From assembly GCA_002786595.1 (NCBI GenBank), contig PCTC01000069.1:1-12542 (forward strand): 12,542 bases of DNA, in the 5' to 3' direction. This document shows positions 4,715 through 11,692 of the stretch, in pieces. The notes beneath the pieces were generated by a model, which was not told the DNA's origin, made no database searches, and was given only the letters and a program-made list of their open reading frames with translations. Position 1 is the stretch's first letter, and each line of letters opens with the position of its first letter. The position numbers and the translations under genes are program-made. Source of the DNA: Candidatus Roizmanbacteria bacterium CG22_combo_CG10-13_8_21_14_all_34_12. Its GTDB lineage: Bacteria > Patescibacteriota > Microgenomatia > UBA1406 > GWC2-37-13.

Positions 4715-6319
4715 TTATAATTTAGGATTTTTAGCAATTCGCTTATATATCCATATCACAGGATGATCAAACACTGTCCATGTTTCTTCTGCCTGTTCGT
4801 CGGGAAATTTCCATTGATAAATTTCCGGGTATGACTTAAACTCCGCCACTTTTTCAAATCCTAATTTTCCGGAAAATAAACCCTCATAATATTTATTTAA
4901 AATCGGATATTTTTGTTTTGAATGATTTGCAAAAATTCTTCTCGACGGGATAAAAATATAATCTGCCTTTTGTAAATGGTTACTCAACTCAAACTGTAAC
5001 TCTGGACTTGCATCCAAATCATAAAAATTGAAAGAGATTATTTGATAATTTAAATTTTGAATTTGTTTCGAATTTCGAATTTCGAGTTTCGGATTTAAAA
5101 CAGGGATATCAACCACATTGGCCGTTTCCGATAAAATATATGAATTATTAGGAATATTTTTATAAATCCAATCTGAAGCTTGAAAACGAACATCAGGGTT
5201 TTGGTAAATAGAAAGATAAGCGATGCCGGGAATGATTGCAAATATAATAATTATAATTTTTATAAAATTTATAACTTTTATCCTTTGCAAAAATAGAACG
5301 GCAAATATGATAATTATTGGAAATACAGGTGCCATAAACCGACTCCATTTTGCATAGATCATGGCACTGGGAACAAAATAAATTAAAAAGGCAAAACGCA
5401 ATAAATTTGTTTTCCTGTCTTTCCAATTAGCCCCAATTAGCCCCATAAGTCCTATCAAGAATACCGGCCAACCAAGAGCGAAAGGAAATACTTTTTCAAG
5501 CTGAAACAAAATGGGTTGTGTATTAAAAAATTGTCTCGTGTAAAAAACTAAAGATTTTCCGAGGGCAACTGCAGATTCATAATTCATTGAGCTAATAAAA
5601 TCTTCAAAATTTATGAAATTATGAGGTGAAAATAACACCATAAAAATTATTGTCAACATTCCAAATTTAACAAGATTTTTATATCTATCCCACGATCGCA
5701 GACTAGATAATATAGTAATTAACGGAACAATAATAAATATTATTGAAGAAACTTTCGTTGCTATTGCTAATCCTGAAACTAAAGCTAACTGTACAACCGT
5801 TCCGGTTGTACGGCGTTCAAACATTAGCATTGATAAATAGATAATTAAACTATAAAAAAGCATAAGTAAAGATTCCGTCGTGCCAAAATGTGCAAACTGA
5901 ATTGCAAAGGGAGAAAAAATAATAACGAGATAAGAGATAAAGAGTGTGAAGTGAGATTCTTTTTTAATTATAACTTTTATAATTTTTATAATAATTATTG
6001 CGTTGATAACAGATGCTATTGCCGATATTATCCTCAAACTAATAGTTGCTTCTAGCTTTAAGAAATAAGTAATCAGATAGCCCAAATAAAGTGGAAACTG
6101 TCCGTAGGCAAAAAAGTGAGGATTACCGCATTCGCGAAAATTCGAAATTATGCAATTCAGACCCTGAATTGCGCTTGCCATATTTCTCTCATCAGGATGC
6201 ATCGGGAAAGGTAAACCCCAATCTAAGCCTACAAACCGACTATAAACAAGAATTAAAAACAATGAAGCAATGAAACAATGAAACAATAATTTTTTCTTGC
6301 TGTTGATTTTCTCCAGCAT
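4715..6319 (-). CDS. GT-C fold membrane glycosyltransferase (ArnT/PMT-like)
   Basis: A 534-residue polytopic membrane protein. About ten to twelve hydrophobic helices fill residues 10-370, followed by a soluble C-terminal part. The first extracytoplasmic loop carries MHPDE (residues 40-44); an acidic motif at this place is the catalytic hallmark of GT-C enzymes such as ArnT and protein O-mannosyltransferases, which transfer sugars from polyprenyl-phosphate donors on the outer face of the membrane. The ending WTVFDHPVIWIYKR is common to PMT-like and YYY-type membrane proteins. The donor and acceptor are unknown; cell-surface glycan or glycoprotein synthesis is inferred. Residues about 410-419 are encoded by a 7-bp tandem repeat, and residues in the fifth or sixth helix region by a short hairpin, both apparently tolerated in frame. 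A -10 (TATAAT on the minus strand) 7 nt before the ATG points to a leaderless mRNA. Confidence 0.88.
   Translation of the reverse strand: MLEKINSKKKLLFHCFIASLFLILVYSRFVGLDWGLPFPMHPDERNMASAIQGLNCIISNFRECGNPHFFAYGQFPLYLGYLITYFLKLEATISLRIISAIASVINAIIIIKIIKVIIKKESHFTLFISYLVIIFSPFAIQFAHFGTTESLLMLFYSLIIYLSMLMFERRTTGTVVQLALVSGLAIATKVSSIIFIIVPLITILSSLRSWDRYKNLVKFGMLTIIFMVLFSPHNFINFEDFISSMNYESAVALGKSLVFYTRQFFNTQPILFQLEKVFPFALGWPVFLIGLMGLIGANWKDRKTNLLRFAFLIYFVPSAMIYAKWSRFMAPVFPIIIIFAVLFLQRIKVINFIKIIIIIFAIIPGIAYLSIYQNPDVRFQASDWIYKNIPNNSYILSETANVVDIPVLNPKLEIRNSKQIQNLNYQIISFNFYDLDASPELQFELSNHLQKADYIFIPSRRIFANHSKQKYPILNKYYEGLFSGKLGFEKVAEFKSYPEIYQWKFPDEQAEETWTVFDHPVIWIYKRIAKNPKL
5066..5093. repeat. Four tandem 7-bp units (TTTCGAA type) inside the glycosyltransferase gene
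   Basis: TTTCGAA (5066-5072), TTTCGAA (5073-5079), TTTCGAG (5080-5086) and TTTCGGA (5087-5093), flanked by AATTTG and ATTTAAAA. On the coding (minus) strand this gives NPKLEIRNSKQ at about residues 409-419. Similar A+T-rich CGAAATT strings are, to my recollection, common between genes in Microgenomates, so this looks like a repeat that entered and stayed in frame. Confidence 0.7.
5791..5811. repeat. Short perfect hairpin inside the glycosyltransferase gene
   Basis: GTACAACCG (5791-5799) and CGGTTGTAC (5803-5811) form a 9-bp perfect stem with a 3-nt loop. It is more G+C-rich than its surroundings and encodes RTTGTV between two membrane helices of the protein. Confidence 0.6.
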
Positions 6320-9723: not shown

Positions 9724-9802
9724 ATTATAATCACTAAGTATCTATCGTCAATAATTTCATCTTCTATCAATCTAAATGTATACTTTTGTAGGTTATAAGC
9801 GG

Positions 9803-9831
9803 TAGACAAAGATTTTGCTACAACGTAACAT
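9803..9831 (+). promoter_or_regulatory. Candidate promoter of the TrpR-like regulator
   Basis: TAGACA (9803-9808, 5/6 of TTGACA), 17-bp spacer, TAACAT (9826-9831, 4/6 of TATAAT). Transcription would begin near 9838, about 7 nt before the ATG. The -10 and start site lie inside the palindromic site at 9817-9844, as expected for autorepression. Confidence 0.45.
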
Positions 9832-9844
9832 TACGATGTAACAT
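9817..9844. promoter_or_regulatory. Operator-like site A, directly before the TrpR-like gene
   Basis: A 28-bp site with GTAACAT at 9825-9831 and again at 9838-9844 (13-bp period) and an imperfect palindrome around the centre (left GCTACAACG, right CGATGTAAC). It is identical to site B at 24 of 28 positions and ends at the base before the regulator's start codon. Confidence 0.65.
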
Positions 9845-10282
9845 ATGATAAGAATTTCATATCTGCAAATAAAGGCTCAAGACTACGAAAAAATATTTTC
9901 TATTTTTTATAAGGTTTTGGGAGAGACTGAAAACAAAGAAGAATTTAATAAAATATTATTTGATCTTCTAACTCCTGCTGAACGAATTATGCTTATAAAA
10001 AGAATTGCTATTATTTATCTTTTACTAAAAGAGATTGACTATAGAATGATATGTAAGGCTTTAAAAGTATCAAATACGACTGTAAATAAATATAAATTAT
10101 CGTTGGAAAGAAGTGAGGGAATTGTTCCTGTACTCAAGAACATGGTTAAACATGAAAAAGTTTGGTTATTTTTTGAAGAAATTTTTAGTCAAATTTTTTA
10201 TCCGGGTCGTCCTGGAATAAACTGGACAGCAGCTTGGGAAATGAAATTAGCCTTAGAACGTAAAAAGGAGAGGGGATTATAG
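9845..10282 (+). CDS. TrpR/YerC-family transcriptional regulator
   Basis: A 145-residue DNA-binding protein of the Trp-repressor superfamily. Residues 41-62 (LLTPAERIMLIKRIAIIYLL) line up closely with E. coli TrpR (LTPDEREALGTRVRIV), including Arg53 at the place of the corepressor-contacting Arg54. A helix-turn-helix follows at about 66-84 (YRMICKALKVSNTTVNKYK). TrpR and YerC are about 100 residues; this one has an extra C-terminal tail of about 50 residues (with YPGRPGINWTAAW) whose role is unknown. Members of the YerC branch in Gram-positive bacteria have been described as histidine-responsive regulators (HisR). Here the gene lies next to hisS and is bracketed by two near-identical palindromic sites, so autoregulation plus control of hisS is inferred. 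Corepressor identity is not proven by sequence. The gene ends in TAG. Confidence 0.88.
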   Translation: MIRISYLQIKAQDYEKIFSIFYKVLGETENKEEFNKILFDLLTPAERIMLIKRIAIIYLLLKEIDYRMICKALKVSNTTVNKYKLSLERSEGIVPVLKNMVKHEKVWLFFEEIFSQIFYPGRPGINWTAAWEMKLALERKKERGL

Positions 10283-10294
10283 CTTCAAAATTTG

Positions 10295-10324
10295 ATGTTA
10301 CACCGTAACATTAGGGTGTAACAT
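10295..10324. promoter_or_regulatory. Operator-like site B, between the TrpR-like gene and hisS
   Basis: Perfect 10-bp arms ATGTTACACC (10295-10304) and GGTGTAACAT (10315-10324) around a 10-nt centre that carries another GTAACAT (10305-10311). The 28 bp at 10297-10324 match site A at 24 positions. It lies about 49-78 bp upstream of the hisS start, outside the -10/-35 region of that promoter. Confidence 0.7.
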
Positions 10325-10356
10325 TTAAATTTAAAGCTAAAATAAAATTAAAATTT

Positions 10357-10365
10357 TGATATAAT
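10357..10365 (+). promoter_or_regulatory. Extended -10 promoter of hisS
   Basis: TGATATAAT is a perfect extended -10. The hexamer ends 7 nt before the hisS ATG, predicting a leaderless mRNA. No -35 is evident in the A+T-rich region upstream. Confidence 0.65.
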
Positions 10366-10372
10366 TTCGAAT

Positions 10373-11692
10373 ATGGCAGATCAAATCAAAGTTCAAAAAT
10401 TAGCAGGCTTCAGAGATTACTTTGTTGAAGATGTAAAGATTCGGGAATATGTCATTAATATTTTTAAAAAAGTATTTGAGAAGTATGGCTATGAACCATT
10501 GGAAACCCCAGCATTGGAAAACAGCAATATATTTGTTGGTGAATTGGGTGATGAGGCAGAAAAACTATTTTACCGTTTTAAGGATCAAGGTGGACGAGAT
10601 ATCATGCTTAAATATGATGTTATGACACCAATGTGCCGCACTGTGGCTGAAAATATAAACAATATTATATTTCCCTATAAACGGTATCAAATACAAAATG
10701 TTTGGAGAAGTGAAAAGCCTCAAAAAGGCAGGTTTAGAGAATTTACCCAATGTGATGCCGATACGATAGGAAGTAGCTCCGTCATCTGTGACGCAGAATT
10801 TATTCAGATGGGAATAGAGGCTTTGACTAATATCGGTTTTAAAGAGTTTCGAGCCAATATTAATAGCAGAAAATTACTCAGTGGAATCATCCAATTTGCT
10901 GGGGCTTCAGAAAAAGAATTTATTCCTATATGTATCTCTATTGATAAATTACCCAAAATTGGCAGAGAAAAGGTCAAAAAAGAATTGATTGAAAAAAGAA
11001 AAATTAGCCCTGAAGTATCTGATAAGATTTTGGATCTTATTACTCTAACAGGAGAAACTGAAGAATTGTTAACTAAGTTAAAAAAACAGCTTACTAATAT
11101 TCCTATAGCTATGGAAGCAATTGATGAACTTGAAATTATTTTTGATTATTTTAAAACTGTTAAACTTGATAAAAAATTTTACCTGTTCACACCTTTTATT
11201 GCCCGAGGCTTGGCTTATTATACTGGCCCAGTGTGGGAATTTGAAATACTGGAAGGCGAAGTTGGATCTGTGGCTGGTTGTGGTCGATACGATAATATCA
11301 TTGGCAAGTTTGTTGGAAAGGAAGTCGCAGCCACAGGTGGATCTTTTGGCATAGAAAGATTGGTCGAAGTCATCAAATCAAGAAAAATGATCAACATTTC
11401 CTCAACTATTGGTAAAGTTCTAGTAACAATATTTGATAAAGAACTTTTTGATAATTCTTTAATAGTTGCAGATGAACTAAGAAAAAATAATATATCAACC
11501 ATTCTTTATCCTGTCCCAACAGATAAATTAGATAAACAACTAAAATATGCAAATAAGAAAAATATTCCTTACGTAATCATTATTGGACCAGAAGAAGTGG
11601 TTAATGGAAAAGTAGTTTTGAAAGATATGAAGACGGGTGAGCAACAAAAGCTAACCCAACAAGATTTGATAAAATTTCTAATTTCTAATTAA
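10373..11692 (+). CDS. hisS: Histidyl-tRNA synthetase
   Basis: Class II synthetase charging tRNA-His with histidine; cytoplasmic, normally a homodimer. It has 439 residues, within the usual range. Near the N-terminus AGFRDYF is the family opening. MLKYDVMTPMCR at about 79-90 corresponds to LRYDLTVPFAR of the eukaryote/archaeon-like HisRS branch rather than LRPEGTAG of E. coli. Motif 2 is VWRSEKPQKGRFREFTQCD. The histidine-binding signatures are RGLAYYTG and GCGRYDN, and motif 3 is GGSFGIERL. From about residue 345 the C-terminal alpha/beta anticodon-binding domain begins (GKVLVTIF). All expected catalytic segments are present. The last codons (FLISN) are written in the A+T-rich repeat that continues as the hairpin downstream. 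The promoter and regulator context suggest control by the TrpR-like protein. Confidence 0.97.
   Translation: MADQIKVQKLAGFRDYFVEDVKIREYVINIFKKVFEKYGYEPLETPALENSNIFVGELGDEAEKLFYRFKDQGGRDIMLKYDVMTPMCRTVAENINNIIFPYKRYQIQNVWRSEKPQKGRFREFTQCDADTIGSSSVICDAEFIQMGIEALTNIGFKEFRANINSRKLLSGIIQFAGASEKEFIPICISIDKLPKIGREKVKKELIEKRKISPEVSDKILDLITLTGETEELLTKLKKQLTNIPIAMEAIDELEIIFDYFKTVKLDKKFYLFTPFIARGLAYYTGPVWEFEILEGEVGSVAGCGRYDNIIGKFVGKEVAATGGSFGIERLVEVIKSRKMINISSTIGKVLVTIFDKELFDNSLIVADELRKNNISTILYPVPTDKLDKQLKYANKKNIPYVIIIGPEEVVNGKVVLKDMKTGEQQKLTQQDLIKFLISN

Follow-up and report, generated by a model that had tools for sequence, protein, structure and literature searches.

Probable TrpR-fold autorepressors bracketed by their own palindromes in Candidatus Roizmanbacteria

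In Candidatus Roizmanbacteria bacterium CG22_combo_CG10-13_8_21_14_all_34_12, a gene for a TrpR-family protein lies upstream of hisS and is enclosed by two nearly identical palindromes, here called sites A and B. The gene is carried by the 12,542-nucleotide contig PCTC01000069.1 (assembly GCA_002786595.1; C50 in our numbering), which was analysed over its whole length and is referred to as the window. We found that the gene belongs to a family with several paralogues per genome, that most members have a palindrome at one or both gene ends, that site sequence covaries with protein sequence and that further copies of the sites are dispersed over the genomes. These proteins are probably autorepressors with gene-bracketing operators and additional scattered sites, in a layout resembling that of repetitive extragenic palindromic (REP) sequences and REP-associated tyrosine transposases (RAYT), without the transposase. 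Highly reduced genomes are expected to shed regulators. Against this expectation, the present genome (G000, a 650-kb draft in 84 contigs, 76% complete) keeps seven copies of one DNA-binding family, most of them with a putative operator pair of their own. Among the matches listed for the open-access literature, we found no paper on a TrpR-like, gene-bracketing family in bacteria of the Candidate Phyla Radiation.

A TrpR-family gene between two palindromes

The gene (9845..10282, + strand, stop codon included) encodes a protein of 145 amino acids with a conserved C-terminal part. The protein matches Pfam PF01371 at 38.1 bits (gathering cut-off 27), as do its paralogue L039 (42.4 bits) and the distant relative L204 (36.9 bits), and no other domain, including a Y1 HUH transposase, was detected in the three members scanned. 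Its AlphaFold model (pLDDT 79.2, pTM 0.65) retrieved TrpR or TrpR-like structures as top Foldseek hits, with a probability of 1.00 and TM-scores by target of 0.66-0.80 among the first 28; the best E value was 7.6e-3 and none was at 0.001 or below. The score against the TrpR equivalog TIGR01321 was 25.8 bits, far under the cut-off of 67.25. When the regulator was aligned by profile with 3frw, 3kor and 3g1c, inspection by eye showed only some of the conserved acidic positions of helix 2, the proposed histidine contacts of HisR/YerC, to be shared.

A preliminary description of this DNA had called the gene TrpR/YerC-like. The first half of that name is borne out by PF01371 and the TrpR-like model, whereas membership in YerC/HisR was rejected on protein length, the different operators and the targets seen. 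HisR is described as having fewer than 100 amino acids and a site of 20 bp, cacTTTAnnnnnnTAAAgtg, which is located at his genes (PMC9413887). HisR/YerC of Firmicutes belongs to the TrpR family as well and is autoregulated in part of the genomes (PMC9413887), but our regulator is longer, its 26-28-bp sites vary by paralogue and no his biosynthesis or transport gene stands at the sites read. With Escherichia coli TrpR, also of PF01371, it has in common the fold, the position of the helix-turn-helix and, as predicted here, a palindromic operator and autoregulation, the latter being mentioned for TrpR in the HisR study (PMC9413887). It differs from TrpR by its 145 amino acids with a conserved C-terminal extension and by palindromes at both gene ends that differ between paralogues.

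Site A (GCTACAACGTAACATTACGATGTAACAT; 9817..9844, + strand) is a putative palindromic operator that covers the likely -10 box (TAACAT, 9826-9831) and the transcription start and abuts the ATG at 9845. The box follows the -35 hexamer TAGACA (9803-9808) by 17 bp. Site B, the candidate cognate palindrome (10295..10324, + strand), lies 12 bp past the regulator stop, and its arms are perfect over 10 bp (10295-10304 and 10315-10324); its 28-bp part (GTTACACCGTAACATTAGGGTGTAACAT, 10297-10324) is identical to site A at 24 of 28 positions. The palindrome of site A, which occupies the same position in relatives, was equalled in none of 200 shuffles, and that of site B had a p value of 0.005 in the shuffle test. 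Moreover, site B is more similar to site A than is the downstream region of any gene less than 60% identical. A 20-bp core with up to three mismatches matched the window three times (A, B and B on the other strand) versus a mean of 0.09 in 200 shuffles. These results confirm the preliminary description as to the two bracketing 28-bp sites, their identity, the perfect arms of B, the overlap of A with the likely -10 box, its end at the start codon, and the position of B upstream of the hisS -10 box. No third full copy of the 28-bp site occurs in the window, again as described; a 26-bp core identical to that of site B is found at three further places in the draft genome (C66:5092, C26:393 and C67:155).

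Paralogues with their own sites and covariation with the protein

A protein search identified seven TrpR-family paralogues of 145-147 amino acids in this genome. Family matches were present in 31 of the 57 genomes tried, this one included, with up to eight per genome; the weakest of them resemble, by eye, the shorter YerC-type proteins. In a draw over the phylum, the family was found at an E value of 1e-10 in 17 of 117 genomes (own included). Removal of duplicates and of proteins shorter than 120 amino acids reduced 118 tblastn hits to 74 non-redundant genes. A palindrome was considered significant when it ranked with the top 2% of shuffled versions of its region. By this measure, 44 genes have a palindrome at the start codon, 54 just after the stop, 36 at both ends and 62 at either. 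Half of the upstream palindromes (22 of 44) are centred exactly at -13 from the ATG, and the centres of the 54 downstream ones have a median of +17 from the stop.

For each gene, the upstream region was compared with the downstream one, and their similarity was set against that obtained across genes less than 60% identical. This own-pair similarity was unmatched in 41 of the 74 genes, and matched by at most 5% of the comparisons in 53. Examples are the pairs of L057 (TACTTCAATCGATTAAACGATTGAAGTA upstream, CACTTCAATCGATTAAACGATTGAAGTG downstream) and L177 (TACTACAATTAATTAATTAATTGTAGTA upstream, CACTACAATTAATTAATTAATTGTAGTG downstream). In our genome, six of the seven members show the matching two-site layout, and five of the six paralogues have it beside unrelated genes. 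The next long open reading frame (ORF) after the 54 significant downstream palindromes, taken by a longest-ORF rule, is co-directional in 34 cases, opposite in 14 and unscored in six. Since this orientation and the position relative to the regulator stop both place site B with the regulator, site B is most likely the regulator's own downstream operator.

The sequence of the sites follows that of the proteins. For the 59 of 74 genes with a usable site, site distance was correlated with the distance at residues 75-85 when the rest of the protein was controlled for (partial Mantel r 0.24), and none of 2000 permutations was as high. The highest value of a sliding scan (0.255) fell on residues 77-87, which form the recognition helix; values rose again within the first 30 residues, to at most 0.22 at residues 5-15, in the N-terminal arm. 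Scan windows flanking the helix were intermediate, those starting at residues 25-69 reached at most 0.13 and those starting beyond residue 101 were about zero. Among the hisS-linked orthologues, the helix reads SNGTVSK in G002 and G014, where both operators are of the ACTACT type, and SNTTVNK in G000, G007, G015 and G016, where the operators have TTACA-type arms; exchanging SNTTVNK and SNGTVSK is predicted to switch the protein between GTTACACC and ACTACTCC sites. This covariation provides the strongest argument for binding of the palindromes by the protein, and the family provides dozens of natural protein-operator pairs in which changes of TrpR-fold specificity can be read.

Computation shows the family, its paralogues, the two-site layout, the covariation of sites and proteins and the dispersed sites, whereas we infer binding, dimerisation, repression and looping. 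The regulator would be a TrpR-fold DNA-binding protein, presumably a dimer, recognising its own 26-28-bp palindrome. A dimer on site A, over the -10 box and the start, would block the polymerase and lead to autorepression, while site B, about 480 bp away, would aid repression by looping or as a roadblock behind the gene. The few further dispersed sites are probably bound too. Autoregulation through the bracketing sites, already proposed in the preliminary description, is thus supported indirectly, by the palindromes, the own-pair similarity and the covariation.

Dispersed sites and palindromes inside housekeeping genes

We compared 20 Roizmanbacteria genomes for three types of site, that of the window and those designated C78 and L044. 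With up to two mismatches, the window-type pattern occurs at 28 places, nine of them regulator loci, in six of the 20 genomes, and the reversed control gave no match. It is present in six of the seven genomes that bear the orthologue and in none of the other 13, so that the conservation in relatives considered in the preliminary description is found. Of the further copies envisaged there, dispersed ones do exist, the window-type pattern lying at 19 non-regulator places, but no histidine biosynthesis or transport gene was seen at the 19 dispersed window-type sites read. Contexts were established from fetched sites (19 window-type, 22 C78-type and 19 distinct L044-type places, the last from 21 rows in which two places appeared twice), and gene names outside Pfam or TIGR profile matches were assigned by eye. 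Of the extra copies of G000, one precedes an EpmA-like class II synthetase gene that has EF-P behind it, another coincides with the 3' end of cutA, on the upstream side of a tRNA-Leu gene, and a third precedes a 113-amino-acid ORF of unknown function. The synthetase and cutA copies have counterparts at these genes in G002 and G015, and a window-type copy lies ahead of uvrD in G002, G014, G015 and G016.

The C78 type, searched with three mismatches, was found in the four genomes that have its gene (19 places in G016), in G006 as a single two-mismatch hit and in none of the other 15. The L044 type occurs in eight of the 20 genomes: all four known bearers and G006, G007, G009 and G015, which have no identified gene for it. 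Overall, one to 19 places were found per site type and genome. The C78-type regulator of G000 and G008 (L040, L057) has a thermonuclease-like gene (by eye) behind it, and a third palindrome copy stands after that gene.

REP/RAYT systems have a gene between two cognate palindromes, coevolution of gene and palindrome, and further palindromes scattered mainly over genomes that contain the cognate gene (PMC2817692). Here, too, genes are flanked by cognate palindromes (at both ends in 36 of 74, with the own pair in the top 5% in 53 of 74), and the window and C78 types occur where their gene is, the L044 type fitting less well. Unlike REP sequences, which have more than 100 copies (PMC2817692), our site types have at most the 19 places mentioned above, no Y1/HUH transposase domain was found in the members scanned, many copies lie inside genes and no insertion was seen in queA.

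The three types differ in their location. Open frames of at least 150 amino acids contain 19 of 22 C78-type and 13 of 19 L044-type sites read, and only one of 19 window-type sites, 15 of which are outside genes; two of the remaining six L044-type places are B sites of the corresponding regulator itself. Genes bearing sites include queA, murD, pheS and the class I lysyl-tRNA synthetase (LysRS) gene, as identified by Pfam. Rickettsia palindromic elements are palindromes inserted into genes. At queA, such an insertion was rejected: nine of 11 other orthologues align without gaps at the site, so that sequence was replaced rather than inserted, and the remaining two (G015 and G006), which lack the palindrome, are longer by nine residues.

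At a given codon position, the site type changes between species. In queA, it is C78 in G016, L044 in G000, L019/L050-like in G017 and G019, and L022-like in G009. In LysRS, G014 and G016 have the C78 type and G000, G002, G008 and G015 other types, in a comparison that leaves aside the orthologues of G001 and G011, both of which enter the count of centres below. In murD, palindromes occupy the position in G016, G002, G013 and G017, and pheS of G016 and G015 seems, by eye, to be a fourth such case. Over queA, LysRS and murD, palindromes of at least 11 of 13 pairs are centred exactly at the site in 15 of 43 orthologues, compared with four of 38,146 other centres within these genes. The query genome had been selected because it bears the site; when it is left out, the count is 12 of 40 orthologues, related genomes not being independent. 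Five coding sites common to two genomes are identical at 120 of 130 positions against 743 of 1040 in their flanks, a contrast biased in that both members were found with the same pattern.

Of the 15 coding palindromes, 14 were compared with family operators, all except that in murD of G013, where no family gene is known; operators with a palindrome score below 7 were skipped, and the paralogue set is incomplete. Eight have a match of at least 24 of 26 to an operator of the same genome, and in six of these eight that operator equals or exceeds the best one available from the other genomes. In the remaining six cases, a relative supplies the best match (20 to 24), with a tie at 20 for murD of G017. 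The murD gene of G013 has its palindrome even though no family gene was found in that genome. LysRS of G029 and G007 contain other palindromes (CAGAATTACGCGATCGCGTAATTCTG and AGCTTTGGTGCGGCCGCACCAGAGTT) at approximately this part of the gene (L281, around 2087; L279, around 2150).

These coding sites perhaps have a role beyond promoters, be it chromosome marking or spread by site conversion. Tentatively, and with the odds somewhat against it, we propose that multi-paralogue TrpR-fold proteins with private palindromes mark fixed positions of the chromosome, some of them in housekeeping genes, and that at such positions (queA, LysRS, murD and probably pheS) selection or site conversion keeps a palindrome while its sequence changes, from species to species, into that of a different paralogue present in the genome; what is inherited would then be an occupied position and not one operator sequence. 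Sites that are fixed in place while changing type between species raise a testable question on the use of intragenic protein-binding sites in bacteria. In SlmA with its SlmA-binding sites (SBS) and MatP with matS, a small DNA-binding protein likewise has dispersed chromosomal sites. Our proteins, also small and predicted to bind DNA at dispersed sites, differ from both in that one genome contains several paralogues of differing specificity, each gene being enclosed by its own sites. PARCELs (palindromic amphipathic repeat coding elements), described as dyad-symmetric DNA encoding amphipathic protein segments (PMC2996958), also place such DNA inside coding sequence, but ours are single 26-bp sites in housekeeping enzymes that match the operators of a DNA-binding family.

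The hisS neighbourhood and alternative explanations

Downstream of site B lie the hisS -10 box (TATAAT; 10360..10365, + strand, 7 bp before the hisS ATG and about 37 bp from the end of site B) and hisS itself (10373..11692, + strand), a histidine--tRNA ligase gene by TIGR00442 (372.4 bits, cut-off 286.75), whose transcript would be near-leaderless. In seven of the 20 genomes, the orthologue of the regulator follows ctpA/PDZ genes and precedes hisS, with prfA after hisS where the stretch reaches. An extra ORF precedes the regulator in G006, G007 and G015, and a 275-amino-acid ORF plus a leader stands between regulator and hisS in G002 and G007. The regulator is absent from this place in the 13 other genomes, and in eight of them hisS comes immediately after a ctpA- or PDZ-type gene (by eye). 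The adjacency to hisS is thus explained by the location of the module in an old ctpA/PDZ-hisS-prfA gene string, and hisS is a neighbour of the regulator, not an established target. Two distant hisS lineages, about 45-49% identical, occur at this locus in close relatives (G000, G002, G006 and G015 versus G007, G014 and G016), a pattern that looks like replacement in situ.

A short ORF that includes two or three histidine codons and has a terminator-like hairpin after it, here called a His leader, precedes hisS or a small hisS operon in at least eight of the 20 genomes (loci L143, L144, L145, L215, L216, L218, L222 and L228), in a survey in which the hisS start of G013 was not located and G009 was read in part. 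Three of these genomes have the regulator (G002, G006 and G007) and five have none at hisS (G003, G004, G010, G017 and G019). One His leader folds with a z score of -6.1; the leaders gave no Rfam match, and none precedes hisS in the window. Histidine control of hisS in the genus apparently operates through this leader attenuator.

The preliminary description had interpreted the locus as a possible histidine-linked circuit, in which the regulator would sense histidine, repress itself via A and control hisS via B. The association of all seven orthologues with hisS agrees with this, as does the TrpR-family protein HisR of Gram-positive bacteria, whose DNA binding is stimulated by histidine (PMC9413887), and the centre of site B, about 62 bp before the inferred hisS start, is at an activator-like position. 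However, the distance from B to the -10 box of hisS or of its leader varies from 29 to 53 bp across genomes (37 in G015, by eye), and activation from a fixed spacing was rejected for this reason. The paralogues repeat the layout beside other genes, the other site copies are not at histidine genes, B is tied to the regulator stop, ctpA/PDZ-type genes also adjoin hisS where the regulator is absent and relatives supply hisS with its own leader. We therefore rejected the histidine circuit as the principal explanation and regard it as very unlikely; control of hisS by histidine through the regulator is not indicated, although the four leaderless species leave room for a takeover of hisS control by the regulator. 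It is also highly improbable that the palindromes act merely as RNA hairpins that terminate or stabilise transcripts. They can fold as hairpins, and T runs come after a small number of B copies (L057, L058), but not after most of those seen (by eye), the upstream copies lie over the promoter, and the agreement of site and recognition helix is not predicted by RNA structure alone.

A mobile or selfish module, in which the promoter block and the gene with its two sites move together and give rise to dispersed palindromes, as RAYT genes do for REPs, would account for the patchy presence of the family, for the largely complete confinement of site types to genomes with the cognate gene and for paralogues 82-86% identical that lack shared neighbours (L017/L050, L017/L052 and L050/L051, and L042/L043 within our genome). 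Promoter block, gene and sites are retained in these pairs, and in several pairs the homology begins around -100 and ends close to the outer edge of site B. The regulator module may change place. On the other hand, both neighbours are conserved in all five pairs at 90% identity or above, and one neighbour or more in 12 of the 19 pairs at 80-90% (with flanks of 0.3-3 kb, in which sharing may be missed), no transposase domain was found in the members scanned and the queA site replaces sequence instead of inserting, so that we regard this explanation as unlikely. Viral carriage was rejected, as one scan of viral contigs gave three pattern matches, none of them confirmed, and no relative. We give equally little credence to a chromosome-landmark family of the SlmA or MatP kind, whose dispersed sites would organise or mark the chromosome: most C78- and L044-type sites lie inside genes, the codon position is kept across species and shared coding sites are better conserved than their flanks (in the biased contrast above), but window-type sites are mostly outside genes, and in the complete genome G053 the palindrome of the best family member occurs only at the two places that bracket the gene.

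The preferred reading, autorepression from gene-bracketing operators, has its own difficulties. Neither end has a significant palindrome in 12 of the 74 family genes. In our genome, L044 has a downstream site without a matching upstream one, and L042 and L043 share one site type. The dispersed sites of G002 are of the GTTACACC type while its regulator operators are of the ACTACT type, a misfit to the rule of one protein and one site. In addition, the constant position of the seven orthologues upstream of hisS is what a hisS target would predict too, and the His leader is missing in four of these genomes (G000, G014, G015 and G016).

Upstream of site A, the regulator has a promoter block (TTTTGTAGGTTATAAGCGGTAGACA; 9784..9808, + strand) with its -35 hexamer at the end. 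The block is found at 20 places in our genome with up to two mismatches and in 19 of the 20 genus genomes, the reversed control giving none. Its nearly fixed 25-bp form, TTTTGTAGGTTATAAGCGGTTGACA, occurs at 0 to 32 places per genome, and some species have a dialect of their own (window 9784-9808; L116-L126). Besides TrpR-like genes, it precedes recA and a ComEA-like gene (names by eye), and it was therefore rejected as a hallmark of the family; it resembles a class of promoters in which a site for some factor is conserved further upstream. At the gathering threshold of Rfam, the window and eight loci gave only a tRNA, and the window has a tRNA gene (RF00005) at 594-665. Finally, some small ORFs are preceded by promoter-like stretches in which the spacer between TTGACA and the -10 box consists of trinucleotide repeats (AGA, AGT), 17 bp long in four cases and 11 bp in one by eye (L045, around 5010-5045; L047, around 190-225; L133, L134 and L138); these may be phase-variable promoters.

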